Positions 7,974 to 25,538 of a DNA stretch of 32,218 nucleotides are shown here, piece by piece. The stretch covers positions 1 through 32,218 of IMG/VR virus record IMGVR_UViG_3300032291_000797; one strand, given 5' to 3'. How positions within the stretch are numbered: the stretch's first letter is position 1; each line of letters begins with the position of its first letter. The notes beneath the pieces were generated by a model. It made no database searches, had not been told where the DNA came from, and worked only from the letters and a program-made list of their open reading frames with translations. Position numbers and translations under genes: made by a program. The DNA is from a virus.

Positions 7974-8488
7974 TTCCAATAGTCGCCTCCCTACTTACGA
8001 CCCTTGCCTCAAATGGCTTGGGTCTTTTGTCTTCTGCTATCCAAGCAAAGGGAAAAGAAGTCGTCGAGCAAACGCTTGGCGTGAAAATTCCCGACAACCC
8101 AACACCTGAAGATGTCGCCAAGTTGCGCCAAGCGCAGTACGACCACGAAGAGCGTTTGCTTGAGTTGGGTATTGAGAAGGCTCGTCTTGAGCAGGAGGAA
8201 CTCAAAGCCATCCTTGCCGCGCAGGCCGCTGAAGAGAGCAATGTCAGCCGCCGTTGGGAAGCAGACATGGTCTCCGACTCGTGGTTGTCCAAGAACATCC
8301 GACCCGGCACGCTGGTGTACATCCTGACGGCCTACCTGCTGTTCGCAATTGCCGACGGCTACGGTTTTCGGATTGCCGAATCCTACGTCAATTTGTTGGG
8401 CCAATGGGGTATGTTGGTGATGACCGCGTATTTTGGAGGTCGTTCCGCTGAGAAGATTGTTGGGATGCTGAAAGGGGTCAAGGAATGA
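7970..8488 (+). CDS. Holin of the 3TM (GTA-release) type
   Basis: 172 residues. Short hydrophobic N-terminus (IVASLLTTLASNGLGLLSSA), a charged helical middle (~25-90, HEERLLELGIEKARLEQEEL), then the characteristic segment SDSWLSKNIRPGTLVYILTA leading into two C-terminal membrane helices (~112-128 and ~137-155). This order matches the phage holin family first described for gene-transfer-agent release (GTA_holin_3TM). The product should permeabilise the inner membrane and let the downstream endolysin reach the wall. It overlaps four bases with both neighbours, as expected for a lysis operon. Confidence 0.72.
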   Translation: MIPIVASLLTTLASNGLGLLSSAIQAKGKEVVEQTLGVKIPDNPTPEDVAKLRQAQYDHEERLLELGIEKARLEQEELKAILAAQAAEESNVSRRWEADMVSDSWLSKNIRPGTLVYILTAYLLFAIADGYGFRIAESYVNLLGQWGMLVMTAYFGGRSAEKIVGMLKGVKE

Positions 8489-8826
8489 GCCTGAGCCAAG
8501 AACAAGCGGCATTCCTATTGGATGCCTGCAAACTCATCCAATACGCCACAGAGCAGGGCTTTGTGGTCACTGGTGGCGAGTTGGCTCGTACACCTGAACA
8601 GCAGGCCATTTACGTCAACACAGGCCGCTCCAAGACGTTAAACTCTATCCATCTCAAGAGGTGTGCCATTGACTTGAATTTCTTCAAGGATGGGCAGATA
8701 ATCTGGGACAAGGGCATCCTTGCGCCATTGGGTGCTTATTGGGAAACTTTGCACCCCAAAAACCGTTGGGGTGGGAACTTTAAATCACTGGTGGATTGTC
8801 CACATTTTGAACGAAACGTGGGGTAA
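8485..8826 (+). CDS. Endolysin, M15-type peptidoglycan peptidase
   Basis: 113 residues, a minimal single-domain enzyme. The metallopeptidase M15 (VanY/L-Ala-D-Glu endopeptidase-like) motifs are visible: NSIHLKRCAIDLN gives zinc ligands His56 and Asp63, and RWGGNFKSLVDCPHFE gives the third ligand His107 after the typical GG-F-D-PHFE ending. It should cleave peptide cross-links or stems of peptidoglycan at lysis. There is no signal peptide, so release depends on the holin encoded immediately upstream, with which it overlaps by four bases (ATGA). Length and motif order fit small phage endolysins well. Confidence 0.82.
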   Translation: MSLSQEQAAFLLDACKLIQYATEQGFVVTGGELARTPEQQAIYVNTGRSKTLNSIHLKRCAIDLNFFKDGQIIWDKGILAPLGAYWETLHPKNRWGGNFKSLVDCPHFERNVG

Positions 8827-9466: not shown

Positions 9467-10696
9467 ATGAGTTACAACAGCCCCTTCACAGGAAACGTCA
9501 TTCAACCGACGGACGTCTCTTACAGCCGAATCACACTGACAACTGACTTACAGTTGACTTGGCCCATCAATGGCACAACCGCCGATGACGCCGCCGCTCG
9601 AATCATGGAGGTGTCTACCGCTTCCACTGCAAATGAGTTGTGGATGCCACCTGCAAACCAAGCCTCGGTCGGTCAAGACGCCTTGATTCGCAACGTCGGC
9701 TCTGTTGCCCTGACAGTCAAGGACTTCACTGGCGCAAACACCATTGTGACGGTCGCCGCAGGTGAGGCTCAGTACATCTATATCACCACCAACGCTACCA
9801 CTGCGGGAACATGGGGAATCATTGCCTACGGCATTGGCTCTTCTGGCGCGGATGCCGCTACGTTGGCGGGATATGGTTTGTTGGCAATTGGTCAGACGCT
9901 CAATCAGAGCCAACCAGTTACGACGTTCTCATCCAGCTACACGGCCTTGGCAACAGACCGCTCAAACACTTATGTGTGGACTGGCGGCGCTGGCACTTTG
10001 ACGATGACGCTGGCATCTACGCTTGGCGACAATTGGTTCATGTTTGTGCGCAACAACGGGACTGGCGCTTTGACTGTGGATTGCAGTGGCGGAAACACCA
10101 TAAACGGCTCCACTTCAATCGTTCTCCAACCTGCTGACTCTTGCATCATTGTCTGTAGTGGTTCAACTTTCTACACCGTTGGCTTGGGTCGGAACACGCA
10201 GTTTGCATTTACTCAATTGAGTAAGGCGGTTACATCTGGCTCGTACACCTTGACTGCCTCTGAGTCGTCAAACGTCATTCAGAAATACACAGGCACATTG
10301 ACTGGCAACGTCACAATCGTTGTTCCTGCGACTGTGCAGGTTTACTACATTCTGAATGAGACGACTGGTGCTTACACAGTCACAATCACAACAGGCTCTG
10401 GCTCTACGGCGATTTTGACCGCAGGCAGTCAAGCCACGTTGGTTTGCGACTCTGTGAACTTGTACAACGCCAACACAATTTTGGCTGGTACTTCGACTAT
10501 CAGTTTGAACAATGGTTCAGCCAGTAACCCTTCGTTGAATTTTTCTTCAGAAGCTACGACAGGTATTTATCATGCCGCCGCTGGTGAGTTCAACATTTCA
10601 ATCCTTGGGGTGCTGAGGTCAACGCTCTCCGCTACTGGATTGTCAATTGTTGGCGCTGGTAATTTCACTGGTGGAATTGCTGGCGGGACTTACTGA
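9467..10696 (+). CDS. Beta-repeat virion surface protein
   Basis: 409 residues, rich in T, S, G and N with regular beta strands. Residues ~1-130 contain a non-repetitive domain (LQLTWPINGTTADDAAARIM; GTWGIIAYG). From ~150 two or more similar blocks follow the scheme SYTA/SYTL, then TLTM/NVTIVVP, then a closing GST(S/A)I strand (near ~165-235 and ~255-325). The C-terminus has NPSLNFSSEATTGIYHAAAG and ends GGIAGGTY, like the small protein at 2334-2627. Located between adaptor and nozzle genes, it is a likely tail-spike or fibre-like appendage component. No enzymatic motif seen. Confidence 0.6.
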   Translation: MSYNSPFTGNVIQPTDVSYSRITLTTDLQLTWPINGTTADDAAARIMEVSTASTANELWMPPANQASVGQDALIRNVGSVALTVKDFTGANTIVTVAAGEAQYIYITTNATTAGTWGIIAYGIGSSGADAATLAGYGLLAIGQTLNQSQPVTTFSSSYTALATDRSNTYVWTGGAGTLTMTLASTLGDNWFMFVRNNGTGALTVDCSGGNTINGSTSIVLQPADSCIIVCSGSTFYTVGLGRNTQFAFTQLSKAVTSGSYTLTASESSNVIQKYTGTLTGNVTIVVPATVQVYYILNETTGAYTVTITTGSGSTAILTAGSQATLVCDSVNLYNANTILAGTSTISLNNGSASNPSLNFSSEATTGIYHAAAGEFNISILGVLRSTLSATGLSIVGAGNFTGGIAGGTY

Positions 10697-12951
10697 TGGT
10701 TAAAAAGGTTTTCACCATTGACACGTTGCCGGGAGTCCAGCGCGACGGAACAATCTTTGACATGAACTTTTACACGGACGCTCGTTGGGTTCGTTTCCAA
10801 CGCGGTCGCCCAAGGAAAGTTGGTGGGTATCGCGCAATCGTCAGCAACGCAAACGGATACTCTCGCGGCATCTATGTAAACTCAGTGGACGGAGTCAACT
10901 CGGTTTTCAACGGATATAGCGAAGGTCTTGAGGTCGTCAACATCAACAACCTTGGTATTGGCGCTGGCGTAAATGAATTTACCTTCACAGGTCTTGTTTT
11001 AACACTCAACACATTGGTTGGCGGCACGCTCTACACCAACGGCACATATACAGGCGTGACCTTGACTGGTGGCTCTGGCTCTGGCGCAAAGGCAACTATT
11101 GTTGTGTCTGGCAATACCGTGACCACGGTGACGCTCACAACGGCTGGTAATGGCTATGTGGTTGGAGACACTTTGAGCGCTACCGCCGCAAGCATTGGCG
11201 GAACTGGTAGCGGCTTTTCAATCAATGTTGCAACGATTGATGATGGCTTTACAGCCAGCGATTTGAATTTGTGGCAGTTTGATTCGACTTTTGATTCGCA
11301 AGGTTCTGGCAACCAATTGTTGCTTGCGCACCCCGGTCAAAACTTGGCGCAGATTGACCAAACAGTCGCCACTCCAGTCTTGGCTGGGAACATCAACGGC
11401 ACAACTTTGTCCCCACTTACTGACACTGCTGGCTCAAACCCAACTGGCGATGTCATTGAAGTTGCTGGTGGCGTGTGCGTACTCCACCCTTATGTCTTTG
11501 TGTATGGAGACAACGGCCTCATCAAGAACTGCGTCGCTGGGAATCCATACGATTGGAACGGAGCAGACGCCAACGAGACGAACGTGGCCTCAACAAAGGT
11601 TGTCAAAGGTTTGCCAGTGCGAGGCGGCTCTAACGCCCCTTCAGGATTGTTTTGGTCTCTTGACTCACTGATTCGTGTGTCCTACACACCAACCACCGTA
11701 ACGGTCGCTGGAAGCCCTCAGACTTTCTATTGGCGCTATGACATCATCTCAAGCCAATCTTCCATTCTTTCTAGCCAATGCGTCATTGAATATGATGGCA
11801 TCTACTATTGGATTGGTGTTGACCGCTTCTTGATGTACAACGGTGTGGTCAAGGAAATTAAAAACACATTCAACCAAAACTACTTCTTTGACAATCTCAA
11901 CTACGCTCAACAGCAAAAAGTGTTTGTCAACAAGGTTCCTCGCTTTGGTGAGATTTGGTGGTTCTTCCCTTCTGGAGACTCAGAAGAGTGTAACGATGCC
12001 ATCATCTACAACGTCCGCGAAGATTGTTGGTATGACGCTGGTGGCGCGTTGGGCGCTCGTCGCACTGCTGGGTACTTCTCTCAAGTGTTTCACTACCCCA
12101 TCAATGCTGGCGCAACATTGAGTGAGCAGGAAGTTATTTTCACTGCATCAATTTCAACAACAAATGCCAATGCAGTAATCACAATTGCACCAAACAACTT
12201 GGTGGCGGTGGGTCAACAAGTTGTTTCCACAAGCGTCCCATCTGGCGCTTCAATTTCATTGATTACACCCAACGCCGCGTCGCCAACAGCCACAGGCTCT
12301 TCTGGGTCAAGCGACATCGTTGTCAGTAGCGCAACTGGTATCGTGCTGAATCAATCCGCCACAGGCACTGGCATTGGTGCAGGCGCGATTGTGACCAACA
12401 TTGTTGGAACAACGATTACGCTTTCTGTGGCAAACAGTGGCGCTGTGTCAGGAACCATTTCATTCTCTGGTTTGAGTTTGACTTTGTCTGCAAACGCAAC
12501 GGCAACATCTGTTGAGACTGCAAACTTTGACACTGTGGCTGGCAAGGTGATTTTGTGGCAACACGAAATTGGCACTGACCAAGTTATTGCTGAATCAGCG
12601 GACGCCATCGAGAGTTACTTTGAGACAAGCGATTTGGGTTTTGTTGCAGGTGGCCCTGCGCAGACCGCCCCTGTTGGCGAAAACTTCTGGGTGAACTTGG
12701 AGCGCGTGGAACCTGACTTCATCCAACAAGAAGAGATGACATTCCAAGTCACTGGTCGACCATATGCTCAGTCTACTGATGTGACGTCAGACCCTTATGT
12801 GTTTTCTCCAAACACAGGCAAGATTGATATGCGCCAACAACGGCGCGAGATACGCTTGCGATTCAAGAGCAACGTGCAAGGCGGCGATTACCAAATGGGT
12901 AAAGTTTTGCTCACGGTTACTTTGGGCGACTCTCGACCATACGGAAGCTAA
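10696..12951 (+). CDS. Tail nozzle-like protein with inserted domains
   Basis: 751 residues. The N-terminus (FTIDTLPGVQRDGTIFDMNF, then ARWVRFQRGRPRKVGGYRAI) and the C-terminus (RREIRLRFKSNVQGGDYQMG) are the recognisable ends of the beta-propeller nozzle / DNA-stabilisation proteins closing the tail of short-tailed phages. The core also shows YWIGVDRFLMYNGVVKEI and WYDAGGALGARRTAGYF blade-like segments. Two stretches look foreign to that core: residues ~100-181 (GSGSGAKATIVVSGNTVTTV, GNGYVVGDTLSA) and ~483-611 (repeated GT-rich, Ig-like strands). One-base overlap with the previous stop (TGATG). Nozzle assignment is supported by its position after the adaptor. Confidence 0.65.
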   Translation: MVKKVFTIDTLPGVQRDGTIFDMNFYTDARWVRFQRGRPRKVGGYRAIVSNANGYSRGIYVNSVDGVNSVFNGYSEGLEVVNINNLGIGAGVNEFTFTGLVLTLNTLVGGTLYTNGTYTGVTLTGGSGSGAKATIVVSGNTVTTVTLTTAGNGYVVGDTLSATAASIGGTGSGFSINVATIDDGFTASDLNLWQFDSTFDSQGSGNQLLLAHPGQNLAQIDQTVATPVLAGNINGTTLSPLTDTAGSNPTGDVIEVAGGVCVLHPYVFVYGDNGLIKNCVAGNPYDWNGADANETNVASTKVVKGLPVRGGSNAPSGLFWSLDSLIRVSYTPTTVTVAGSPQTFYWRYDIISSQSSILSSQCVIEYDGIYYWIGVDRFLMYNGVVKEIKNTFNQNYFFDNLNYAQQQKVFVNKVPRFGEIWWFFPSGDSEECNDAIIYNVREDCWYDAGGALGARRTAGYFSQVFHYPINAGATLSEQEVIFTASISTTNANAVITIAPNNLVAVGQQVVSTSVPSGASISLITPNAASPTATGSSGSSDIVVSSATGIVLNQSATGTGIGAGAIVTNIVGTTITLSVANSGAVSGTISFSGLSLTLSANATATSVETANFDTVAGKVILWQHEIGTDQVIAESADAIESYFETSDLGFVAGGPAQTAPVGENFWVNLERVEPDFIQQEEMTFQVTGRPYAQSTDVTSDPYVFSPNTGKIDMRQQRREIRLRFKSNVQGGDYQMGKVLLTVTLGDSRPYGS

Positions 12952-12952
12952 T

Positions 12953-13213
12953 ATGGCGCTTCCGCTCGTATACGACCCTCGGTATCACACATGGGACTCT
13001 TGGTCGAGCCTCATGGTCGAGGCGTATGCGGCGCAACAGCTATCAATGAACACGCCCGAAGAGGCGTGGAAGGAATGGGCGGCGGGGCTAAAAGCCATCG
13101 ACGTCTTTGTGAACGAGGGCATTCCCGGCCCCTACATCTATGAGAACTGGCAGGACTGGGCGCAAGCACTGGTCGGAGCAGTCAATCAATCTTATGAGGA
13201 AACGGCAACATGA
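12953..13213 (+). CDS. Small Trp-rich structural-operon protein
   Basis: 86 residues from the ATG one base after the nozzle stop; the open frame further upstream is antiphase to the nozzle gene and rejected. It contains many aromatic residues (YDPRYHTWDSWSSLMVEAY, EEAWKEWAAGLKAIDVF, YENWQDWAQALVGAVNQ) and looks wholly helical. It lies directly after the nozzle-like gene and overlaps the ACP gene by four bases (ATGA), so all three are probably translated together. Function unknown; possibly a tail or virion accessory. Confidence 0.6.
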   Translation: MALPLVYDPRYHTWDSWSSLMVEAYAAQQLSMNTPEEAWKEWAAGLKAIDVFVNEGIPGPYIYENWQDWAQALVGAVNQSYEETAT

Positions 13214-13491
13214 ACTTCATTGAAATTTTTAACCATGTGGCAAAGGTCGCTCGACCCGCGCACGTCAAGGTAGCCATTGCAGAGTCAATGGAAGACCAAT
13301 TCCAAGACATCGGCTTGGACAGCCTCGACGGCTTGGTCATGCTGATGTACTTTGATGAACTCTACGGCATCGCTGACGAGGTGAGCAAAGAGTGGACGCC
13401 AAAATCCGTGCAGGAACTTCACGACCTTGTAATGGCTCATAAAACCAAAGAGCCAACGTCAATGGAAGAAGTTGCTGAGGTGTGCAAATGA
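13210..13491 (+). CDS. Acyl carrier protein (phage-encoded)
   Basis: 93 residues. The 4'-phosphopantetheine attachment motif is clear: FQDIGLDSLDGLVMLMYFDE, with Ser38 in the DSL core, followed by YGI as in the LEEEFGI region of bacterial ACPs. A predicted helix I (~1-25) precedes it and helices III/IV follow (~60-75), with an extra Lys/Glu tail of about 18 residues compared with the ~77-residue E. coli AcpP. Relative to AcpP, the acidic recognition helix has Val43 in place of Glu41 and Leu51 in place of Glu49. The gene starts with an ATGA overlap on the upstream stop and overlaps the ketosynthase start the same way. No phosphopantetheinyl transferase is in the window, so the host enzyme would have to load it. 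Confidence 0.85.
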   Translation: MNFIEIFNHVAKVARPAHVKVAIAESMEDQFQDIGLDSLDGLVMLMYFDELYGIADEVSKEWTPKSVQELHDLVMAHKTKEPTSMEEVAEVCK

Positions 13492-14597
13492 TTTATCTCA
13501 CACACTACCGCACAGCCTCCACCAACAACGTCGAACTGTTCGACGACATCATCTACCCGCAAAAGGTCAATTGGTTCCCTGAGACCTACAACCGCACAAA
13601 GTCTGGCTTGGTCTACGTCCCCCATAAGTTGGCGGAGAAAGTCCTTGACCCTGAGTTGCTGACGTTCTTGCGAGACAACCCAGTTGGCAAGACGGCCTTC
13701 ATCCTTGCTGGTGGCAACGCCCACTTTGCAGGCATTGGACAGCGCCCATATGACTCGCGCCTGACCTACACCTACAAGTTCCTGCCTTTCACCCTCACGC
13801 AGGTCTATGCGGGTCGTGTGGCCCAATCTTGCGGCGACATGGATATGGTCACCACAGACGCCTCTGCCTGCGCCTCCAGCCTAAAGGTGATGATGGATGT
13901 GGTCAACCTCATCGACTTCTACGATTACGACCGCGTCATTGTGCTGACGGTTGAGGATGGCGTCTCAAACGCTGTTTTGGAGTTTTTTGGCGACTCCAAG
14001 GCTGTTTTGACTCAAAAACAAGAGGATGAGGGCATCAAGCCATCCGCTTTCGATTCGACCAACTTTGGCTTTCGAGTGGGTCAAGGAGCCGCTTTGGCGG
14101 TGTTTGAGTCTCGCGACGCGGTGGCTCGTCAACAAATTAAGCCCCATGCCCGCTTGGTTGGGGCATACAGCGCGTCGGAGCGCTCAACCAATGCCATCGG
14201 TCAATGTGAGGACGGCGAGGGGTTCATTAAGGCTATGGAGGGCGCAATGCACTATGGCAATATTTCCCCAGATGAGATTAAAATCGTCAAAACCCACGGA
14301 ACTGGAACTGCGTCCAACAACAAGGCTGAAAAGAACGCCTTGACCCAAACGCTAAAAGCATTCATTGCAACCTCGTATAAGCAAAAAATTGGTCATACGA
14401 TGGGTAGCAGTGGACTGCTGGAAACGCTACTTTTACTGCAAGACATCAAAGCTGGATTTGTCCCTGCGATTGAGAACCGAACCGAAACTGATTCGGTATT
14501 CCTTTCGGAATCGACAACCCCGCCTGATGGCTTGATAATGAGTTTGGCGGCAGGAATGGGAAACATCTACTCCGCCGCAATTTTTAAGGGGATGTGA
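13488..14597 (+). CDS. 3-oxoacyl-ACP synthase (KAS I/II-type ketosynthase), phage-encoded
   Basis: 369 residues from ATG 13488, which overlaps the ACP stop (ATGA); a GTG two codons earlier is possible but less likely. Full thiolase-fold condensing-enzyme motifs: DASACASS (nucleophile Cys128), KTHGTGTASNNKAEKNAL (His270) and KIGHTMGSSGLLETLLLL (His303). Spacings are close to FabF's Cys163-His303-His340, which marks the Cys-His-His KAS I/II class, not KAS III. It should condense an acyl-thioester with malonyl-ACP or, failing that, decarboxylate malonyl-ACP. It is about 35 residues shorter before the Cys than FabF. The usual GFGGTN gating loop near the C-terminus is replaced by LAAGMGNIYSAAIF. 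The adjacent ACP is the obvious partner. No ketoreductase, dehydratase or thioesterase gene is nearby. Confidence 0.88.
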   Translation: MIYLTHYRTASTNNVELFDDIIYPQKVNWFPETYNRTKSGLVYVPHKLAEKVLDPELLTFLRDNPVGKTAFILAGGNAHFAGIGQRPYDSRLTYTYKFLPFTLTQVYAGRVAQSCGDMDMVTTDASACASSLKVMMDVVNLIDFYDYDRVIVLTVEDGVSNAVLEFFGDSKAVLTQKQEDEGIKPSAFDSTNFGFRVGQGAALAVFESRDAVARQQIKPHARLVGAYSASERSTNAIGQCEDGEGFIKAMEGAMHYGNISPDEIKIVKTHGTGTASNNKAEKNALTQTLKAFIATSYKQKIGHTMGSSGLLETLLLLQDIKAGFVPAIENRTETDSVFLSESTTPPDGLIMSLAAGMGNIYSAAIFKGM

Positions 14598-15040
14598 TGT
14601 TAGTTGACAGCAAAAAGAAACAACTGAGCCAAGATGCAATTGTGATGATTGCGGCTCAGGAGACTAAGTCACCACACCCAGCATCTACTGTCTATGCGGC
14701 GCTTGTGAAAGAGATGAATATGCCCGGCACATCGCTTGTGCGCGACGGCAACACTCTTTTCGTCATCCACGTTGGTCAAGGCCGCACAGGCGTCTTCCGT
14801 GCATTGAATGCCGACACCGCCCGCAACTACCTAGAGAACTCCTACGCCTTCATCCAAGGCGCTTACAAGATGGGATTTGACGTCCTCGTAAGCGAGTTTG
14901 AAGACCCAACAATTTTCAATATTTTTAAAGCGATTTCGCGCAACCCTCCTCAAGAGGGAATGGGCTACAAGGCCGAAAGAACCAAAAAAGGGTTCCGCGT
15001 TACGGTAAAACTTGGGCCAAAGCGGGCTGAAAGGGAATAA
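14597..15040 (+). CDS. Protein of unknown function coupled to the ketosynthase
   Basis: 147 residues from ATG 14597, which shares its first base with the ketosynthase stop (TGATG); a GTG one codon upstream is possible. Beta strands (GTSLVRDGNTLFVIHVG, GRTGVFRALNAD) are followed by a long helix (YLENSYAFIQGAYKMGFDVL) and a basic C-terminus (GFRVTVKLGPKRAERE). The strand/helix order and the FI..A...GFDVLVSEF segment vaguely recall GNAT-type acyltransferases and the small gp13-like internal proteins of podoviruses, but no acetyl-CoA loop (R/Q-x-x-G-x-G/A) can be seen, so I do not assign it. Position makes it a candidate third component of the ACP-ketosynthase system or an internal virion protein. 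Confidence 0.6.
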   Translation: MLVDSKKKQLSQDAIVMIAAQETKSPHPASTVYAALVKEMNMPGTSLVRDGNTLFVIHVGQGRTGVFRALNADTARNYLENSYAFIQGAYKMGFDVLVSEFEDPTIFNIFKAISRNPPQEGMGYKAERTKKGFRVTVKLGPKRAERE

Positions 15041-15042
15041 TC

Positions 15043-16719
15043 ATGGGAGCAGTAGCAGATTTTGTCGAAGACGTTGGTGACGCAGTAGGCGATGTCTTTG
15101 AAGCTGTTGGCGACGTTGTTGAGGACGTTGTTGAGGTAGTTGGTGACGTTGTTGAAAAGGTTGGCGACGTTGTCCAAGCGGTCATTGACGACCCCGTTCC
15201 TGTTCTGCTATCTGTTGCTGGCGCGGCTGTCGGCATTCCTCCATTTGTCACGATGGGTGCTATTACCGCCGCAAAGGGCGGAGACCTTGAAGACATCGCC
15301 CTTTCAATGGGTACGGCTTACTTTGCCCCCTCGGTTGGCAACGCAATCTCTTCCACTGTTTCCTCTACCTTCATTGAGGCTGGACTTAATGAGACGTTCT
15401 CTCAAGTCGCCAGCGAGTCAATCAGCAAAGGTTTGGTCAATGGTACTGTTGCCGAAATTAAGGGTGGCAGTTTTGATGATGGTTTTGCTGGTGGTTTCAC
15501 TGGCGGTATGGTTCAGGGCGGCGTTGGCGAAGTCGCCAGTTACGTCAAGCCAGACATCGTCGACTTGGCAATGGAAAGCGGCTTTGATTTAAATGACGCA
15601 ACATCCGCATTCAACGCTGGAGTGAAAGCGTTTTCTGCTGGCGTTACCTCAGAAGTCACTGGTCGCGGAGATTTCGCCACTTCGTTCACAACTAGCGCAA
15701 TTGGCTCTGGCGTTGATGCTGGGACTCGCTCTCTCAACTCAACAATTGACGAGCAGTTCAATACTGCCGCATTGGGGTGGAACGAAGAAAGCAAGGATGG
15801 TGAGGCTATTGACACCACCATTACAGGCGCAGGCATTCCAAACTCCATCGTTTCAGAAGTCCAAGTTTCTGATATTGGTGTGGATACAACAGCAAGCGCC
15901 AGCACATTTGATTCCGCTGAAATTTTGGAAGACACGTTAAACGCCTCATCTGGCAATGACACGTCTGTTACTTCGGACGCTTCAACCGCACCAGTGAGTA
16001 GCGCAACGGTAACTCAAGCGCCAACTGGTGAGACTGAAAAAGATTTCCAAGATTTGCTTTCAACGACAGACACAGCCTCTGATGACGTTTTGTCGACTGC
16101 TTCATCTACAGGCTTGCCAAGCGACGTTGTGGACATTGCTGAGAACTTAACAACAGCCGATGATGCTGACGTTGTTGACGTTGCCCCAACTGGCGCGTTG
16201 GCGTCAGTGTCTGAGAACTTACCAACAGTGTTGGATGCAAACGAGCAGGCGACTGTGGTTGCCTCTGATGCTCCAGTCTCTGAGAATCTTCTAACCAGCA
16301 CATTGGCTACAGACAAAGCGGCAGAACAGCCTACAGGTGGTTTGAATGCGGTATCAGCAACAGCCCCTCAAGACAAGATGGCTTCGTCTTTGGGTCTCAA
16401 GCCCACAGACATTACAAAGCCTGTGGTTGCCACGGTTGGCAGTTTGCTCAAGTCCTCATTGACTCAACCAAAGCGTCCAACTACAACTAGGCCAGCAACG
16501 GTCAAGCCTGTTGGCGGATTGAATACGGCAAGCGCAAAGCCTAAAGTGTCTGCGCCCCCCGCAAAAGTTGATGTGGCTAAATTGATACCAATTCAAAAAG
16601 CAACCCCAGTTAAGAAGCCAACAACAGTTGCCCCTCCAAAAACTTTGGCAAGCACTGCAAACCTAAGCCCTGTTAGCAATATTGCAGGCTTGACCTCATT
16701 GGTGAAAAAGGTAGGATAA
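15043..16719 (+). CDS. Internal virion/ejection-type protein with amphipathic N-terminal repeats
   Basis: 558 residues. Residues ~1-50 are an array of VGDVVE-like heptads that would form long amphipathic acidic helices. Residues ~50-80 (VPVLLSVAGAAVGIPPFVT, then MGAITAAKGG) are hydrophobic and Gly-rich, as in proteins that insert into membranes during genome ejection. The middle (~130-200) contains a GG-rich segment (DDGFAGGFTGGMVQGGVGEV); residues ~260-420 are acidic, Ser/Thr-rich and disordered; the C-terminus (~440-558) is Lys/Pro/Thr-rich. There is no signal peptide. It begins the block of large internal proteins. Ejection function is inferred from composition and position. Confidence 0.62.
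   Translation: MGAVADFVEDVGDAVGDVFEAVGDVVEDVVEVVGDVVEKVGDVVQAVIDDPVPVLLSVAGAAVGIPPFVTMGAITAAKGGDLEDIALSMGTAYFAPSVGNAISSTVSSTFIEAGLNETFSQVASESISKGLVNGTVAEIKGGSFDDGFAGGFTGGMVQGGVGEVASYVKPDIVDLAMESGFDLNDATSAFNAGVKAFSAGVTSEVTGRGDFATSFTTSAIGSGVDAGTRSLNSTIDEQFNTAALGWNEESKDGEAIDTTITGAGIPNSIVSEVQVSDIGVDTTASASTFDSAEILEDTLNASSGNDTSVTSDASTAPVSSATVTQAPTGETEKDFQDLLSTTDTASDDVLSTASSTGLPSDVVDIAENLTTADDADVVDVAPTGALASVSENLPTVLDANEQATVVASDAPVSENLLTSTLATDKAAEQPTGGLNAVSATAPQDKMASSLGLKPTDITKPVVATVGSLLKSSLTQPKRPTTTRPATVKPVGGLNTASAKPKVSAPPAKVDVAKLIPIQKATPVKKPTTVAPPKTLASTANLSPVSNIAGLTSLVKKVG
15073..15180 (+). repeat. Coding repeat of GTTGGYGACGTTGTT units
   Basis: Tandem imperfect units of roughly 15-21 bases (GTTGG[T/C]GACGTTGTTGA variants) encode VGDVVE/VGDAVG heptads at the N-terminus of the protein at 15043-16719. 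The repeat is a coding repeat; the strong periodicity of V/A and D/E favours an amphipathic helix. Confidence 0.7.
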
Positions 16720-16721
16720 AA

Positions 16722-19646
16722 ATGGCGATTCTAAAAAAACGAACATCAAGCAAGCAACTCCCAGAGGCGCGAGGTCTTGAACGCGCCCCGTTGGGGAGCA
16801 TCATTCGCAACGCTGAAGATGCGCCATCCATTTCTGGTGGTCGCGCTCCGTCTATCACGTCGGCAGGCGGAACTGGTGGGGCCAACACAATCACATCCTC
16901 TGGCGGCTCATCCAGCGGAGCAGGCTCTCTTGCACCAAGCACTTCGACAAACCGACCTGTGTTGACGAATGGCACGACTACAAAGCCAACGCTGACGTCT
17001 ACAACTAAGCCTGCAACAACAAAGCCAACCACAACTACAAAACCGCTGACGACAAAGCCAGCGGTTACGACTAAGCCTGCGGTCACAACTAAACCAACGA
17101 CCACAACAAAACCTGCGGTCACAACAAAGACTACGACAACACCAACGACGAAGACGACAACACCGACGTCTGTTGTAAAGCCTACCGTTACAAAGCCAAC
17201 CACCAACACGAACTCAACCACCAACAAGGTTGTGAACGCGCTCACGGGCGCGGCGCTTGGCGCTGGCACAAAATTGCTGATTGACAAGATTACTGGCAAG
17301 CCCACAGTGGTTAAGAGTGGCTCAACAGGCTCAACCACTTCTGGGTCGACCGTTAAGCCTTCTACTGGTGGCACAACAAAACCTGCCGCTGGCGGCACAA
17401 CAAAGCCGCCTACTGGCGGGACTACTAAGCCGCCTGCTGGAGGAACAGCGAAGCCTCCTATTACCAGTAAGGTTCTTACCGACGAAGAAGTTCAGGCTGA
17501 ACTTGACCGCGTGAAAAACTCTGAAGAGTCTTGGACGCCGCCAGAGGGCGCGGTGGATAACGGCGACGGAACTTACACGGTCACAGAAGATGGGATGGTT
17601 ACAACTTACAACTCCGATGGAACCATAGCGGGCATGGAGGCTGAGGCTGATACCACCGTTACTGAAGGCGGCGATTCGTCTGACGAAACTACTGGCGGCG
17701 GGACTCGCGGCCTCGGTGGAACAACTGCTGACTCAAATGATTCCATTGACGGTGAGGACACCACTGTTGCGGAAGGCTCTGAAGCAGAGTATTTCCAAGA
17801 TGACGACGGGAACATCTACACACAAAACGAAGACGGCACTTATGAGTTGTACTCAACTGCTGACGGCTCTGTTTATGACGACACAACTGTTGCTGAAGAA
17901 GGCGAATCCGATGATTCGCTTTATGCCGACAACACCTATGAAGACCCAGACACTGGCGCTATATGGACGCTTGCTGATGATGGCACTTGGTCTCAAGAGG
18001 GGGAAGACGTTACATATGATGACTCTCTGTATGCCGACAACACAGACTACACAGACGACACAGACGACACAGACTATACCGACTACACGTTGGCTGACAA
18101 CACAGACTACGACAGCTACGATTATGGAGACTACGAAGTGAAAAAAGGCGGCGCTATTAAGCGAAAAACAAAAGGCGGCTTGCCTCGCTTCGAGGACGGT
18201 GGCTACTCCGACACTTCGGAAGAAGTTCAACCTTGGCAGAACGTAAGCTACAACTACGGCGAAGAAGACGACCCATCGCTGACTGGTGATTTGAGTCTGT
18301 ACAGCGACGCTCCAGATGTTCGAAACACATACACATCTTTGTCGGATACGTTGGATGATGGGGAAGAAGCGGTGACCACTTCTGGCGGCACTGACTTTAC
18401 GCCAACCCCCGGCGTCCAATACTTTGACGATGGCTCATACATCCAGACGTTTGACGACGGAAGCACAATGACTTTCGACTCGGACGGTGAACTTGTCGAC
18501 ACAACAGACGCCTACCAAACCACAATGGATGAAGAAGGCAACTACATCGTCACTGATGGCTATGGCAACATGACCGTCTATGACCCTAATGGGAATTACA
18601 TCCCCGTAGGTGGCGGTCTTTCGACGCCCACCAAAATCACCAACGTCGGCGGCGGAACAAAGAAGCCAGTTTTGGGGAACGTCTTGGGCAACCAAGATAC
18701 AGCCCCAGACACTCTTGGCTCGGACTTCCTCAACACCATTACTGGCGCACTTGGAACAACAGCAGGCGCGGCTGGTGCTGGCGCTTTGATTGCCTCTTTG
18801 CTTGGTGGCGACTTTGGTGGCGGCACGGGTGCGCAAAATCAAGGCTTGGATATGTCGCAGGTCGGCATCATTAACCCACGCACAACCGATTTTGGAATCG
18901 GCCCAACAAACTTTGTGGGCTACGACCAATACGGCACAGACGATGGTGGGTATGTGCCGAACGAAGAGTTGTTGCGTAACTTGAACGCGCCGGGCTACAA
19001 CCCCGTGAATGAAGGCGACTACGGCTACGAAGAAGTTCCTGCCGAAGAAGAAGTGCCAGCGATGGCCTCTGGTGGTCTCTCTTCGATGGCAACCCCCGTT
19101 GCCTCCTACTACACCTTCGGACAACCTGCCGACATCTTGGCAAACTTGGGGATGCGTCCGCAACCCCCAACGAACCCGCCTGAAATGATGCCTCAGATTG
19201 GTCAGCAACAGCCGCCTCAACAAGCGCAACAACAAGGATTGCCACAGCAACAACCCCCTCAAATGGCGCAACAAACGCCACAGGGAATGCCACAGCAAGG
19301 CATGATGCCTCAACAGCAGGGCATGGCTCCTCCAATGCGTAAGGGTGGCTTGCCTCACGTTTCTAACGTGCCAATGACTCAAGGTCGAATGGACTTCCGT
19401 CAAGGCTCTGCCGTGCATGGAGAAGGCGATGGACAGTCTGACGACATCCCCGCTATGCTTGCAGACGGTGAATATGTGATTGACGCTGAGACAGTGGCTC
19501 AAATTGGCAATGGCTCAACTAAGGCTGGCGCACAGGCTTTGGACAAGTTCCGCGAGGGCATCCGCGCTCACAAGCGTTCTGCCCCCATCAACAAAATCCC
19601 ACCTAAAACCAAGGCGTTGACCTCGTATCTCAAAGGAGCAAAATAA
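16722..19646 (+). CDS. Very large low-complexity virion protein
   Basis: 974 residues, built of distinct blocks. Residues ~85-160: TTKP repeats; ~215-245: four GGTTKPPA-type repeats; ~250-450: acidic DDG/EDG repeats resembling DG.YTVTEDGMVTTYNSDG units; ~440-470: DYTDDTD tandem; ~473-490: basic KKGGAIKRKTKGGLPRFEDG; ~550-630: more D-G-S-Y repeats; ~665-690: hydrophobic Ala/Gly stretch (GTTAGAAGAGALIASLLGG); ~800-860: Gln/Pro/Met-rich; C-terminus GQSDDIPAMLADGEYVIDAE...GNGSTKAGAQALD, a signature frequent in large phage tail or internal proteins. It ends in a basic tail. No catalytic motif was recognised. Probably an internal or tail-lumen protein passed into the cell. The next gene starts inside the stop (TAATG). 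Confidence 0.6.
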   Translation: MAILKKRTSSKQLPEARGLERAPLGSIIRNAEDAPSISGGRAPSITSAGGTGGANTITSSGGSSSGAGSLAPSTSTNRPVLTNGTTTKPTLTSTTKPATTKPTTTTKPLTTKPAVTTKPAVTTKPTTTTKPAVTTKTTTTPTTKTTTPTSVVKPTVTKPTTNTNSTTNKVVNALTGAALGAGTKLLIDKITGKPTVVKSGSTGSTTSGSTVKPSTGGTTKPAAGGTTKPPTGGTTKPPAGGTAKPPITSKVLTDEEVQAELDRVKNSEESWTPPEGAVDNGDGTYTVTEDGMVTTYNSDGTIAGMEAEADTTVTEGGDSSDETTGGGTRGLGGTTADSNDSIDGEDTTVAEGSEAEYFQDDDGNIYTQNEDGTYELYSTADGSVYDDTTVAEEGESDDSLYADNTYEDPDTGAIWTLADDGTWSQEGEDVTYDDSLYADNTDYTDDTDDTDYTDYTLADNTDYDSYDYGDYEVKKGGAIKRKTKGGLPRFEDGGYSDTSEEVQPWQNVSYNYGEEDDPSLTGDLSLYSDAPDVRNTYTSLSDTLDDGEEAVTTSGGTDFTPTPGVQYFDDGSYIQTFDDGSTMTFDSDGELVDTTDAYQTTMDEEGNYIVTDGYGNMTVYDPNGNYIPVGGGLSTPTKITNVGGGTKKPVLGNVLGNQDTAPDTLGSDFLNTITGALGTTAGAAGAGALIASLLGGDFGGGTGAQNQGLDMSQVGIINPRTTDFGIGPTNFVGYDQYGTDDGGYVPNEELLRNLNAPGYNPVNEGDYGYEEVPAEEEVPAMASGGLSSMATPVASYYTFGQPADILANLGMRPQPPTNPPEMMPQIGQQQPPQQAQQQGLPQQQPPQMAQQTPQGMPQQGMMPQQQGMAPPMRKGGLPHVSNVPMTQGRMDFRQGSAVHGEGDGQSDDIPAMLADGEYVIDAETVAQIGNGSTKAGAQALDKFREGIRAHKRSAPINKIPPKTKALTSYLKGAK
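16974..17201 (+). repeat. TTKP-encoding repeat tract
   Basis: ACAACTAAGCCT-like degenerate units encode about a dozen TTKPA(V/T) or TTK(T/P) units at residues ~85-160 of the large protein. The tract is mucin-like, Thr/Lys/Pro-only and predicted to be extended and unfolded. Confidence 0.75.
17367..17457 (+). repeat. Four GGTTKPPA-type 24-base units
   Basis: Four successive 24-base units encode GGTTKPAA, GGTTKPPT, GGTTKPPA and GGTAKPP. Differences between units are mostly at third positions, pointing to recent tandem expansion with silent drift. Confidence 0.7.
18036..18134 (+). repeat. Acidic DNTDYTDDTD tandem repeat
   Basis: Repeats of GACAACACAGACTAC and ACAGACGAC type encode alternating Asp-Thr-Asp-Tyr. 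It is an Asp/Tyr-rich coding repeat within the large virion protein, immediately before a basic KKGG..IKRK segment. Confidence 0.7.
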
Positions 19647-20611
19647 TGGCTGGCTTATTTCAGGGTGACCCACTACCCGCGATTACCAAGACGACGGAAG
19701 CCCAACAGTCGGCTCCAGAGTTTTACACGAACTACCTGCAAGACATTGCCAACTTAGGCCAGAACGCTGTCCAACAAGGCGGTATTGCTGGCTTCAGTCC
19801 TTTGCAACAGCAAGCCTTCCAAATGGCCCCAGACGTCGCGTTTTCTGGCGCTGGGTCTATGGGTGCGGCTTCTCAATTGTTGGGCGAGGCGGGCGCTACA
19901 ACCGTCCCTGACGTCATTGCCGACTACATGAATCCCTACACATCAAGTGTGGTGGATGAGATGGGTCGATTGACCAACCGCAACGTCCAAGAAAACATCC
20001 TGCCAAACCTTGGCGCGGCGGCTGTTGGCTCTGGTCAGTTTGGCTCACGCCGTCAGTCTCAAGTCACTGGCAACGCTTTGCGCGACATCCAGTCCGACTT
20101 GTTGGGCAAGCAGATGCAGGCGCTCCAACAGGGCTACACAACCGCAGGCACGCAGGCTCAAACAGATTTGTCTCGCGCACTGAATGCAGGGCAAGCCTTT
20201 GAGAACTTGGGTCAAGCCCAACAAGGTTTGGGTGTGGCTGGCCTCAAGACCATGTCCGACTACGGCGCTCAACAGCAGGCTCAAGGCCAGAAGTTGCTCG
20301 ACTACCCAATGGCTCAGACCCAGCAGTTCGCTAAGTTGCTCCAAGGCTATCAAATGCCGATGGGTACAACCACGCAGTCGACTGGCTCCGAAGGTTACTC
20401 CAACAGCCCACTGTCGCAGATTGCTGGCCTTGGCTCTTTGGTTGCTTCTTTGTACGGTACTCCGCAACCGAAAAACAAAGATGGCGGCGAAATCAAAAAA
20501 GCAAACGGTGGCGGTGTACGCCTTGCCGATGGCGGCATGGCTCCTTCTGGCGCAGAATATCATGATGGCAACGGAAACTTTTACGATGCCGATGGCAACT
20601 TACTGGGGTAA
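19646..20611 (+). CDS. Internal virion/DNA-ejection-like protein
   Basis: 321 residues. Gln/Ala/Gly-rich with long predicted helices. Conserved-looking segments are SAPEFYTNYLQDIANLGQ (N-terminal), YMNPYTSSVVDEMGRLTNRN (~90-115), NLGAAAVGSGQFGSRR (~118-134) and NALRDIQSDLLGKQMQAL (~142-160). The YMNPY and GSGQFGSRR motifs recur in DNA-transfer-type proteins of podoviruses and related aquatic phages. The C-terminus carries KDGGEIKKANGGGVRLADGG, echoing the KKGGAIKRKTKGGLPRFEDG segment of the preceding protein, then YHDGNGNFYDADGN. No signal peptide. Probably one of the core proteins ejected with DNA. Confidence 0.62.
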   Translation: MAGLFQGDPLPAITKTTEAQQSAPEFYTNYLQDIANLGQNAVQQGGIAGFSPLQQQAFQMAPDVAFSGAGSMGAASQLLGEAGATTVPDVIADYMNPYTSSVVDEMGRLTNRNVQENILPNLGAAAVGSGQFGSRRQSQVTGNALRDIQSDLLGKQMQALQQGYTTAGTQAQTDLSRALNAGQAFENLGQAQQGLGVAGLKTMSDYGAQQQAQGQKLLDYPMAQTQQFAKLLQGYQMPMGTTTQSTGSEGYSNSPLSQIAGLGSLVASLYGTPQPKNKDGGEIKKANGGGVRLADGGMAPSGAEYHDGNGNFYDADGNLLG

Positions 20612-20614
20612 AGA

Positions 20615-22420
20615 ATGGCAATTCCAACACAAGGCGGTTTAGGCCAAGCCTCCGCCGCTCAAGCAAGACCCGCCGCACCAGTTCAAGCTGGCGGTAAGTT
20701 TGACGCAAGCGCTGTGCAGGCTGAGAACCTCGAAGAGATAACCAAGTCAAAACCGACTGGGTTAAAAGAAACCGTTATTGACGACCTTGGCGAACAACGT
20801 GAAGCAATGAACGCGGCACTGGTGCGCCTTCGTGAAGGTCTTGATTCGCGCAAGAACAGGCTCTTTGACCCTGTCTTGATGCAGACTGCCGCAGGCTTTT
20901 TAAAGCCAACAAAGACAGGCTCTTTTGGCGAGTCTTTGAGTTACGCCGCAGAAAACGCTGGGACAGCCGCAGAACGCGAAATGCTCCATGAGAAAGAGAA
21001 CCAAAAACTGGAACTCGAACTTGCGCAAAAAGAAATGGACTTCCGCCAACAGTTGGGCGGCGACCAGTTAATCAGCCAATTGATGGGTGGGCCAAAAGTT
21101 GGGGGCGCTCCTGCGCCTGCTGGCGGTGCTGTTGCTACACCTACTGGCGGTCTGCGAGTCCCCGGCACGGCTTCTCCCGTGGACGTGGCTACCGCTCCAC
21201 AGCCTGAGCAAGTGTTGACTGCGGCGCGTCAAGGCCGCATCCCAATTACCGACGAGGTGCTGTTGTTGGCAAGTCGCGTTGCGCCAAAGCTGTTGCCTAC
21301 GCTTAAAGAGATTCGCACGGCTCAAGAGGGTGAAGAGAAGAACCGAATTGAGCGTGAGAAGTTGGAGAAGACCACCCGCAAGGTTATTCCTCGTGGCGGT
21401 CGCACCGAGCGCGAAATGAATCAGGCCGAGTACACCCAGTACCAAGCCGCGCTTCGTCAGTATCTGAGCGATGGTGATGAGAACAAGTTGCTCAACTTCT
21501 ATGACAGCATGGGATGGTTGGAGGCGGAGCAGGCTCGTGGTCGCAAGATTCCAAAAGCTGGAGAAGCCTCCACTCCAATTAGCCCTGCCAAGTCTCAATC
21601 AGAGATGGAAGCCGAAAAAGAGACGGCAACCAAGACGGCGGCTGGTCGCGCTGAAGCCGCTGAGAAGTTGGCTTCACGTCTTGGCTTGCAAGCCGAGGCG
21701 GCGTTTGAGAACAGCAACATCGCCAACGACATGATTGGCTATGCCAAGAACAATCCGTTGGTGTTTGACATCATGAACCGCCCCGGCCTTGCTGGCGCAG
21801 TCTCTCGCGCTGTGCAAGAGGGTGTGAACGCTGGCAACTTCAACATCAACTTGCCTGCCAGCACCATCAAGCAATACGAACTCAGCGGCAACGACCTGAC
21901 TGCGTTGCAGATGTTCATGCAGAAGAGCGCACAGTTGCAGTCGCGTGGTCGTCAGTTGAACAGGACGCCGGGCGAAGGCTCCACGTCTGACTACGAAACC
22001 AAACTGCTTGGCGGCATCTATGCGTTGCCGTCCGACAGTCAACGCGCCATCATTCTGAAGTCCGACGCCCTCAAGATGCAGGGTATGTTTGACGAAGAGC
22101 GCTTCAAGTTGTGGAACCAAAAGAGCAAGCAGTCTGGCTATACCTACAACGACTTTCTTGTCGATGAGGACTTCAAGAAACTGAAGTCCGATTACCGCAA
22201 GACGCTTGACCGTGTGCGTGAAGACAACTTGGACTTGCTGTCACCACGCAAGAAGGATAAGACGCCTGCGGCATCCGCGCCTGCGGCTTCTTCGCCAGCG
22301 CCAGCAAAGCCAGCCGCAACACAAGCAACCCCGTTGCCATCAACCGACCCGTCTGTTCCTCCCAACTACATTCGAGACCCAAAAACTGGCGTAATTCGTA
22401 AGAAGCGCGAAGGGGAGTGA
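20615..22420 (+). CDS. Internal virion protein, helical
   Basis: 601 residues. Mostly charged helices: ~35-75 (DDLGEQREAMNAALVRLREG), ~110-150 (AEREMLHEKENQKLELELAQ), ~215-250 and ~330-360 (Ala/Glu/Lys coiled-coil-like). A folded-looking segment spans ~365-520 (NSNIANDMIGYAKNNPLVFD ... GEGSTSDYETKLLGGIYALP ... YTYNDFLVDEDFKKLKSDYR). The C-terminus is Pro/Ala-rich followed by NYIRDPKTGVIRKKREGE. There is no membrane segment or enzyme motif. Located between an ejection-like protein and the hydrolase-bearing protein, it is most likely a component of the internal core. Assignment is by context. Confidence 0.58.
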   Translation: MAIPTQGGLGQASAAQARPAAPVQAGGKFDASAVQAENLEEITKSKPTGLKETVIDDLGEQREAMNAALVRLREGLDSRKNRLFDPVLMQTAAGFLKPTKTGSFGESLSYAAENAGTAAEREMLHEKENQKLELELAQKEMDFRQQLGGDQLISQLMGGPKVGGAPAPAGGAVATPTGGLRVPGTASPVDVATAPQPEQVLTAARQGRIPITDEVLLLASRVAPKLLPTLKEIRTAQEGEEKNRIEREKLEKTTRKVIPRGGRTEREMNQAEYTQYQAALRQYLSDGDENKLLNFYDSMGWLEAEQARGRKIPKAGEASTPISPAKSQSEMEAEKETATKTAAGRAEAAEKLASRLGLQAEAAFENSNIANDMIGYAKNNPLVFDIMNRPGLAGAVSRAVQEGVNAGNFNINLPASTIKQYELSGNDLTALQMFMQKSAQLQSRGRQLNRTPGEGSTSDYETKLLGGIYALPSDSQRAIILKSDALKMQGMFDEERFKLWNQKSKQSGYTYNDFLVDEDFKKLKSDYRKTLDRVREDNLDLLSPRKKDKTPAASAPAASSPAPAKPAATQATPLPSTDPSVPPNYIRDPKTGVIRKKREGE

Positions 22421-22421
22421 T

Positions 22422-24191
22422 ATGGCGAATGACCATGTAAAAATGTTCACTGAGGAGTACAGCCCGATTGCCGCGCAAGTTGGCAAGCAAATTGGCGTGT
22501 CACCTTCGGTGTTGTTGGCCCAATGGGGCGTTGAGACTGACTACGGTCGCAAGATGTCGGGCCACTTTAACTTTGGCAACATCAAAGATATGTCTGGCGC
22601 TGGCACTTCAGCGGTGGACAACAAGACCAAGTCCAAAGACAACTATGTGAACTTCGAAAGCCCAGAGGCTTTTGGGGACTACTACGCACACATGATGCGA
22701 CGCCTGTACCCCAAAGCCCTCAACGCTGGCGACGACATCGCCAAGTACGCGCAAGGCTTGCGCACGGGCGTCAAGGGCGCATACGCTGAAGCTGAGAACT
22801 ACGAAGACGCAATTCGCGGCGCTCACAAAATTACATCCAACTTTTATGCTGGCGCTGAAGATGGCGACGTGGCGCAAAAAGAAGGAAGCCCTTTTGAGGG
22901 GTATGAGTCTGAGTCTTCCAAGTTCAAGCGAGAGCAAGAAGAGGTGGAAAAAAACAAACCGCCTCAAGCAAACCCAGAAGACCAACAGGGTGGCATCACT
23001 GCCCCTGACGTCGGTGCTGGCGCTGGCGCTATAGCCAACCTGCTATTCCCTCCCATGACCAACCCAGAGCGGGCTGTAAAGGTCGACACAGGTAGAGCCG
23101 AAGAGGCAAACCTCACCGCTCAAGACAAGTTGGACTTGGCTCGTCGCAATCTAGAGAGCGTGGCTCCTCAAGGTGTTGAAAATCTTGAGGACACATTTAG
23201 ACAAAGCCAAGGGGAACTTGAGCGCCTTCGTAATGAACAACGCTTGGCTGAGGCTCGTTTGAAGGGTCTGTCAAAAACAGCGCCAACGATTGAGCCGCCT
23301 GCGCCATCATCCCCATTCCCTCCAGTTGAGGCTCCATCGCGCACCAAGGCGGGCGACCCCGGCGCAGTGAACTGGGTTCACTCAATGGCTGAAGGCGTCC
23401 CTGAAGTTGTTGCCAATCAAGCACTCAATATGCGCGGCGACAATCCTCGTGGTGGTCAAGCCATCATTGACGCAGACATGGCGGCGCGTGAGCGTCAGGC
23501 TGGCCTTGGCTTGAGTGACTACGGTCTGGCCCGCACCGAGGGCGGCGTCCAATTGGCACTGCCTCCCGCAACGGTTGCAGAGCGCCAAGCCGACGAGGAG
23601 CGCGTCTCCAAGCAAAACCAAGCAGAGTTGGCGCGTAGGGCAGAAGAGTCTCGCATTCAGCAAGAGACTCAGGCCCGCTTGATGGAGCAACAGCGACTCG
23701 CTCAAGAGGCCGAGTTGGAGCGCATTCGTCAACAGCGTGCGCAAGCTGGTCAAGAACACAACATTCTCACTGGACAAGTGAAAAGCACGACCCCGTTGAA
23801 ACGTGCGCTCACCAAAGCCGAAACCGATGCAGAGATTGCCGCCCGTAAGTTGTCGCGTGCGCAGGCTCAACCAAATGCCGCAGGGCGAGTTCTACAAAAC
23901 GCGGGAGCAGGCTCTGCCAAGATGGGCGCTCTGCCAAGGACGGTTGTTGGTGGTGCGACTGGCTACCTTGGCGTGATGAGTTACCAAGACGCATTGGCTC
24001 GATACAAGGCTGGAGACACCAGCGAGGCTGTTTTGAAGGCTTTGGAGGCTGGCGCGGCTACTGCGGCTATGGTTCCTCCAGCGGGCAAGAAGCTGACCAA
24101 GGTACGAGGCGCTGGTGTACTTGGCGGTCTGGGTCTTGGCGGATATGAATTGGGCAGACGTCTGTTAAAAGACCGTCCGCCCGAAGAGTGA
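22422..24191 (+). CDS. Virion-associated peptidoglycan hydrolase (glucosaminidase/FlgJ-like) ejection protein
   Basis: 589 residues. Residues ~10-145 match the glucosaminidase domain of FlgJ-type muralytic proteins: VSPSVLLAQWGVETDYGRK with probable catalytic Glu38, then HFNFGNIKD, a NYVNFESPEAFGDYYAHMMR segment and YAQGLRTGVKGAYAEAENYED. Residues ~370-450 are a Glu/Gln/Arg coiled coil (RRAEESRIQQETQARLMEQQ). The C-terminus (~500-585) is Gly/Ala-rich and hydrophobic (TVVGGATGYLGVMSYQDALA; GAGVLGGLGLGGYELGRRLL), suited to membrane insertion. Such proteins cut a local hole in the wall for genome entry. It is the last late gene; a terminator follows 28 bases after the stop. Confidence 0.75.
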   Translation: MANDHVKMFTEEYSPIAAQVGKQIGVSPSVLLAQWGVETDYGRKMSGHFNFGNIKDMSGAGTSAVDNKTKSKDNYVNFESPEAFGDYYAHMMRRLYPKALNAGDDIAKYAQGLRTGVKGAYAEAENYEDAIRGAHKITSNFYAGAEDGDVAQKEGSPFEGYESESSKFKREQEEVEKNKPPQANPEDQQGGITAPDVGAGAGAIANLLFPPMTNPERAVKVDTGRAEEANLTAQDKLDLARRNLESVAPQGVENLEDTFRQSQGELERLRNEQRLAEARLKGLSKTAPTIEPPAPSSPFPPVEAPSRTKAGDPGAVNWVHSMAEGVPEVVANQALNMRGDNPRGGQAIIDADMAARERQAGLGLSDYGLARTEGGVQLALPPATVAERQADEERVSKQNQAELARRAEESRIQQETQARLMEQQRLAQEAELERIRQQRAQAGQEHNILTGQVKSTTPLKRALTKAETDAEIAARKLSRAQAQPNAAGRVLQNAGAGSAKMGALPRTVVGGATGYLGVMSYQDALARYKAGDTSEAVLKALEAGAATAAMVPPAGKKLTKVRGAGVLGGLGLGGYELGRRLLKDRPPEE

Positions 24192-25246: not shown

Positions 25247-25256
25247 GCAATTCTCC

Positions 25257-25538
25257 TTAAACTTTGTTTTCGTCAATGCGGTGGTCGCCGCACCAGTCGG
25301 TCATGTAGACCACTGGGTAGCCACCCATTGTTGGGGCGTGGCGGCGGCAACGACCAATATTGGAAAGACCCAAAGAGGTAGTGCGCTCCTTGGCTACAAA
25401 CCAAATGCAGGTATCGCAAACCATGCCCTTAGAGCGGTGCCTCCAAGGGTCTTCAATCCGCTTTTGTTCTGGGTAAAGGCTTTTTACTTCCTCGCGAGGA
25501 ATGGCGTTTCCGTACTGTGCTTCGTTGCGTTCAATCAT
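25257..25538 (-). CDS. Small Cys/His-rich protein, possible zinc binder
   Basis: 93 residues. The C-terminal half has CDTC, then GRCRRHAP and DWCGDHRID, providing four cysteines and two or more histidines in a zinc-ribbon-like order. The N-terminal half is charged (NAIPREEVKSLYPEQKRIED). The start overlaps the upstream stop by four bases (ATGA) with GAGAGGG just ahead, so it is coupled to the preceding gene. Similar short CxxC/CRRHAP proteins occur in phages and prophages of Proteobacteria; function is unknown to me. Confidence 0.65.
   Translation of the reverse strand: MIERNEAQYGNAIPREEVKSLYPEQKRIEDPWRHRSKGMVCDTCIWFVAKERTTSLGLSNIGRCRRHAPTMGGYPVVYMTDWCGDHRIDENKV

Follow-up and report, generated by a model that had tools for sequence, protein, structure and literature searches.

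A conserved trio of acyl carrier protein, ketosynthase and GNAT-fold candidate acyltransferase genes in the virion operon of uncultured short-tailed phages

The window analysed here is the whole of the linear virus record IMGVR_UViG_3300032291_000797, 32,218 bases in length. On its plus strand, the gene of a nozzle-like virion protein (10696-12951, 751 aa; match to phrog_3287, virion structural protein, at 9.8e-26) forms the upstream boundary of the region of interest and is kept at this place in relatives. It is followed by up86 (12953-13213, plus strand), a small Trp-rich protein of 86 aa to which no function is assigned and which is present in nearly all loci. The 3' end of up86 overlaps by 4 bases the start of an acyl carrier protein (ACP) gene (13210-13491, plus strand, 93 aa), whose own 3' end shares the four bases ATGA with the start of a gene for a KAS II/FabF-like ketosynthase (KS; 13488-14597, plus strand, ATG to TGA, 369 aa). 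The original prediction had reported this pair with its four-base overlap at these coordinates, and had placed it in the virion operon between the nozzle and ejection genes; both statements are borne out, and the same order is found in relatives. Its description as a minimal KS-ACP unit has to be revised, since a third partner that had been overlooked, the GNAT-fold gene dn148 (14597-15040, plus strand; 147 aa from ATG, with a possible alternative GTG start at 14594), always accompanies the pair. Downstream lie ej558 (15043-16719, plus strand), a candidate ejection or internal virion protein that starts with MGAVADFV, and further internal virion protein candidates of 974, 321, 601 and 589 aa (16722-24191, plus strand) in conserved order, of which the 589-aa protein carries a glucosaminidase/SLT domain (PF01832, 5.8e-11). 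Elsewhere in the window, an M15-family peptidase gene, endolysin-like, lies within the virion operon (8485-8826) and is the most conserved neighbour, with about 92% identity. A PD-(D/E)XK nuclease-like gene on the minus strand (24479-25276) stands at the border of a block of minus-strand genes, and the replication-gene region begins with a DUF1376 protein and a DnaB-like helicase (28010-28648 and 29066-30067).

The ACP is divergent, and as a single sequence it falls under the Pfam cut-off (PF00550, E 0.08). The family profile, compared with the PDB, finds essentially only acyl carrier proteins among the matches listed, the best being spinach ACP at 5.8e-5. Ser38, recognised from the outset as part of a DSL motif, lies in the sequence D37-S38-L39-D40; Asp37 and Ser38 are invariant in 129 of 129 distinct relatives, and Leu39 is present in 124 of the 129. 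We also note that phrog_28189, listed as of unknown function, matches ACPs of the cassette family, down to 1e-5, and can probably be named as an ACP family.

The KS is matched by the Pfam families Ketoacyl-synt_C (5.9e-15) and ketoacyl-synt (2.1e-8), its N-terminal 93 residues being without a Pfam match, and its best PDB profile matches are FabF (1.5e-24). The predicted structure (pLDDT 84, pTM 0.88, low confidence at residues 78-102) superimposes on FabF 2rjt with a Z score of 40.5 and an rmsd of 2.7 over 342 aligned residues. As the model fits FabF across residues 1-369, the chain is considered complete, though shorter than FabF, which has about 410 aa. The full-length thiolase fold and the Cys-His-His triad with its Lys and Glu are common to FabF (KAS II) and the phage KS, and the active-site residues line up with those of solved FabF in the alignment. 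C128, H270, H303, K298 and E312 are invariant in 134 of 134 distinct full-length relatives; none of them has been lost, and the Cys128-His270-His303 triad is as intact as had been claimed. FabF carries a GFGG gate, at the site of which the phage KS has AGMGN, near its C-terminus. The KS is apparently an active condensing enzyme, with decarboxylative condensation on malonyl-ACP as its predicted reaction. A further family listed as of unknown function, phrog_35856, matches the KS at 1.5e-36 and is probably nameable as ketosynthase.

No Pfam family is matched by dn148 at E 0.1, the HlyC family of toxin-activating acyltransferases included, and its family profile gives no match to PDB sequences. 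The structural model (pLDDT 91.5), in contrast, is clearly of the GNAT fold: the order of its elements, H-H-E-E-E-H-E-H-E-E, is that of GNATs, and the matches listed by Foldseek and VIA-align are GNATs, the best being RimI 2cnm (Z 11.2, rmsd 3.2, 123 residues aligned). The solved structures closest to dn148 are CoA-dependent acetyltransferases, not acyl-ACP enzymes, and no HlyC-type structures occur among the fold matches listed. The CoA pyrophosphate loop Q/R-x-x-G-x-G/A between strand 4 and helix 3 is missing in dn148, and an almost invariant FRALNADTA occupies this position, which was placed by topology and not by superposed coordinates. Asn71 and Asp73 are found in 124 of 124 relatives. 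No catalytic residue is assigned, because His58 is missing in MW202545.1 (L081). By analogy, dn148 is a candidate acyltransferase, for which an acyl-ACP donor and a protein acceptor are proposed. In two loci (L168, 9110-9790, and L171, 8615-9295) the GNAT gene is ~80 residues longer, with a Pro/Met/Gln-rich tail, and lies directly before the ejection gene. Octadecabacter virus DB2 and Manatee Spring phage MW202879.1 (L409, 8191-8547, and L410, 6854-7228) encode small "acetyltransferase" proteins (phrog_22172) whose genes are flanked by a nozzle-like gene and by those of candidate internal virion proteins. A link of dn148 to these proteins was not found in a single-sequence comparison; GNAT-like genes may nonetheless recur at the site between the nozzle and the internal proteins.

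A scan of viral contigs, of which the best 80 loci were taken, gave a KS 75-95% identical in at least 80 loci. The loci compared are environmental contigs, many of them incomplete, and are counted as distinct after identical KS and GNAT proteins are collapsed. Among 156 distinct loci, 123 contain ACP, KS and GNAT in order, 24 are truncated where the contig stops (19 end just after the KS and 5 begin inside it) and 9 have the GNAT gene only; a KS without ACP or without GNAT occurs in none of the 156 where the sequence continues. The order nozzle, up86, ACP, KS, dn148, ejection gene is kept wherever a contig spans the region, so the conservation of the pair beside nozzle and ejection genes, which had been put forward as a check, proves to be widespread. 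The flanks of the GNAT-only loci are unchanged, with the nozzle and up86 genes before and the ejection gene after, and on the GNAT tree the GNAT-only state needs 4 changes, of which at least 2 are forced by well-supported branches. In a group with related nozzles, none of ACP, KS and GNAT is found in 57 loci with room for them. In this group, up86 is followed directly by the ejection gene; one member is Caulobacter phage RLK, which is itself without the cassette but has a homologue of up86 (hhalign 97.6%, E 4.7e-12). The comparison of loci thus distinguishes three states of one site: nothing, GNAT alone, or ACP-KS-GNAT. The locus counts, the GNAT-only flanks and the GNAT tree together indicate that ACP and KS are gained or lost as a pair, and only beside GNAT.

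Nine loci (L477, L481, L482, L484-L489) combine ACP-KS, plus GNAT where read, with the RLK-type nozzle, so that cassette and ejection protein look as if they can be swapped from one nozzle lineage to another. In L452, about 480 bases just past the nozzle gene hold an extra ORF (MIDPRLEALRADFVYDPDSGLLHRVNGR..) inserted before up86, which, judged by eye, is probably an HNH homing endonuclease. The phages that carry the cassette are uncultured and short-tailed and form a large group, and the trio was found in no phage isolate of the annotated phage collection searched. A single close relative is present in that collection, MW202545.1, which comes from Manatee Spring and is recorded without a cultured host. 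In its public annotation the KS (20001-21101) starts at a downstream codon, 20157 instead of 20001, the ACP is "hypothetical" and one virion protein is named "coronavirus S2 glycoprotein".

From its position and composition, we infer that the gene at 15043-16719 encodes an ejection protein; it lies after the nozzle and GNAT genes, and the N-terminus of its product is an amphipathic helix of V/D/E repeats. In the gene that follows GNAT, position 2 is Ser, Gly or Ala in 117 of 120 distinct N-termini and position 4 is Val in 111 of 120. The resulting M-[S/G/A]-x-V start leads into an amphipathic helix with a median maximal hydrophobic moment of 0.57, versus 0.31 for shuffled sequences. None of 35 distinct GNAT-less relatives has the motif, and their moment is 0.32. 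In L479 and L480, both GNAT-only loci, the ejection N-termini are unrelated and yet have an MG start with an amphipathic helix; an MT start is seen in a few GNAT-bearing loci. A small second residue leaves a free N-terminus after removal of Met, the kind of substrate used by RimI-like enzymes. The bias at residue 2 was rejected as evidence by itself, because MA, MS and MG are frequent starts among the window's virion genes. Because common descent and linkage confound the correlation of GNAT with the N-terminus of the ejection protein, this correlation is to be read as a lead, not as proof. A membrane-active ejection protein is plausible here, since gp14 of T7, the first protein ejected, forms an outer-membrane pore (PMC8954989).

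We tentatively propose, at a little under an even chance, that ACP, KS and the GNAT-fold gene are one late-expressed acylation cassette for virion maturation, in which KS and ACP would supply a dedicated acyl-ACP and GNAT would transfer the acyl group to a virion protein; the N-terminus of the ejection protein encoded next to it is the most likely acceptor. Sequence comparison shows that the three genes are coupled, and catalysis, donor and target are what we infer from it. Ser38 of the phage ACP would receive its phosphopantetheine from the host AcpS; a host enzyme would be needed for holo-ACP because no AcpS is found in the related phage records. The KS, whose catalytic residues are observed, would load or elongate an acyl chain on the phage ACP from host malonyl- or acyl-ACP, and the GNAT-fold protein would take the acyl group off the phage acyl-ACP and pass it to the virion protein. 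The acceptor would most likely be the N-terminal Ser, Gly or Ala of the ejection protein after removal of Met, and, while the DNA is ejected, the acylated amphipathic helix would anchor itself in the cell envelope or make the envelope permeable. GNAT-only phages would use a host acyl donor, and ACP-KS, where added, would provide a dedicated donor or alter the chain. The existence of such phages argues against the proposal in so far as ACP-KS is dispensable in them; the KS is not strictly required if host acyl-ACP serves, and the CoA dependence of the closest solved GNATs also weighs against it. More tentative still is the fuller version, a dedicated acylation system, common among uncultured phages with short tails: KS and ACP would make a specific acyl-ACP, and GNAT would use it to N-acylate the ejection helix, giving a counterpart of N-myristoylated entry proteins. 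Of the three roles first suggested for the pair, supplying a virion protein with an acyl group is the one that the GNAT gene and the N-terminus of the next gene favour; diversion of host flux and remodelling of the envelope are without specific support.

Virus-borne ACP or fabF has been described as auxiliary metabolism (PMC8224337, PMC11705849, PMC7029224), and such a role, in which KS-ACP diverts host malonyl/acyl-ACP and alters membrane lipids or flux late in infection with GNAT as a separate morphogenesis protein adjacent by chance, is unlikely but retains some weight. The intact KS and ACP and the occurrence of GNAT without KS-ACP are consistent with it. The genes of the pair, however, overlap, always lie in the virion operon and never occur without GNAT. 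The earlier observation that no other fatty-acid enzymes are nearby extends, for malonyltransferase and FabG-like reductase, to the relatives: profiles of FabD (PF00698), FabG-like SDR (PF13561) and AcpS (PF01648) give no match in 17 related phage records. Within the collections searched, the KS appears as a viral-only clade. In one scan of genome contigs, the nearest cellular KS among the matches listed are about 23-30% identical, and the sole closer one, at 59%, lies on a contig binned as Balneolaceae with the same ACP-KS-GNAT-ejection order. A close cellular homologue or a recent host origin, by which a host-derived auxiliary metabolic gene is recognised, is thus not indicated by the sequences. 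The virion-operon position, the lack of a host-like origin and the absence of FabD, FabG-like and AcpS matches from the 17 records together make a host-metabolism role less likely.

A stray host copy or misassembly was considered and is ruled out, the pair being widespread, with its order kept and with no near-identical cellular KS in the scan of genome contigs; the original prediction had named this, and loss of the triad in relatives, as outcomes that would speak against it, and neither was seen. The dN/dS values are 0.067 for KS, 0.078 for ACP, 0.060 for GNAT and 0.21 for the ejection protein, and the low KS value indicates strong purifying selection on this gene. Over the same 60 loci, median identity is 90% for KS versus 71% for the nozzle. 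KS and ACP are not chance ORFs, given a KS dN/dS of about 0.07 and a gene order kept in every spanning locus.

An assembly role, in which acyl-ACP, KS and the GNAT-like protein form a structural or chaperone complex with the chemistry secondary, is next in rank and also unlikely. T7 gp13 is thought to aid core assembly, and ACP stabilises mitochondrial complexes. GNAT occupies the place of T7 gene 13, between nozzle gene 12 and the genes of internal proteins 14-16; like dn148, gp13 (internal virion protein A, PF11090) is a small protein, Pfam labels it a probable scaffold protein, and the missing CoA loop of dn148 would fit a non-catalytic function. At this position T7 has neither an ACP nor a KS gene, and no sequence link between dn148 and gp13 was detected (hhalign 0.2% with T7 gp13 alone, a weak single-sequence comparison, and no PF11090 match). 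Against this reading, a purely structural role would not need KS catalytic residues that are invariant in 134 sequences. Acylation by GNAT of a lysine or the N-terminus of another virion protein, be it the nozzle, up86 or another internal protein, is improbable: adjacency does not fix the target and up86 is almost always present, but up86 and the nozzle also exist without GNAT, and it is the N-terminus of the next gene that tracks it. Least probable is synthesis by the trio of an acylated small molecule, a signal or an anti-competitor, as by acyl-ACP-dependent LuxI-type or N-acyl amino acid synthases, since the genes sit among virion genes in constant linkage to one virion protein and no tailoring or transport genes are seen nearby, even though known N-acyl synthases are built around ACP and an enzyme of the GNAT fold. 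Certain LuxI-family enzymes do favour acyl-ACP (PMC4234381), in line with the latter reading.

For the virion-maturation acylation cassette, the nearest parallels are the toxin-activating acyltransferases, which have a GNAT fold without CoA elements and an acyl-ACP donor (PMC8339906), and CdiC, which acylates a cell-contact effector (PMC8510554). HlyC, ApxC and CdiC resemble dn148 in their GNAT fold without CoA-binding elements, in the location of the gene beside its target and in the acyl-ACP donor, target and donor being those proposed for dn148. They use host ACP, whereas the phage cassette encodes its own ACP and KS; the parallel is an analogy, as dn148 has no Pfam sequence match to the HlyC family and the catalytic His/Asp dyad is not established in it. 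Picornavirus VP4, which is N-myristoylated, helps the genome across a membrane (PMC4125281, PMC11280471). It is a functional analogue only, non-homologous and from a eukaryotic virus, and is modified by host NMT with acyl-CoA, while acylation in the phage is a prediction. Reported viral acpP and fabF are single genes or prophage fabG-acpP-fabF sets, in contrast to the present virion-operon trio with GNAT, and the ACP, KS and GNAT profiles gave no match in phage R22Y, of which the first 45 kb were searched, its ACP included. No description of an ACP-KS-GNAT cassette was found in the open-access literature searched; its parts belong to known families and folds, and the cassette itself matches no known system found.

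Fatty-acid genes of phages are usually classed as helpers of host metabolism. Here the ACP-KS pair is tied, inside the virion operon, to a gene of acyltransferase-like type and to a candidate ejection protein, and catalytic residues are kept in more than 100 distinct phages. The analysis also suggests names for two unannotated families, ketosynthase for phrog_35856 and probable ACP for phrog_28189. Phage-borne ACP and fabF have already been reported, and the cassette would be a new kind of system if acylation of a virion protein were proven; lipidation in a phage would be directly testable. An acylated ejection protein, if real, would bear on how short-tailed phages pass protein and DNA through the cell envelope.
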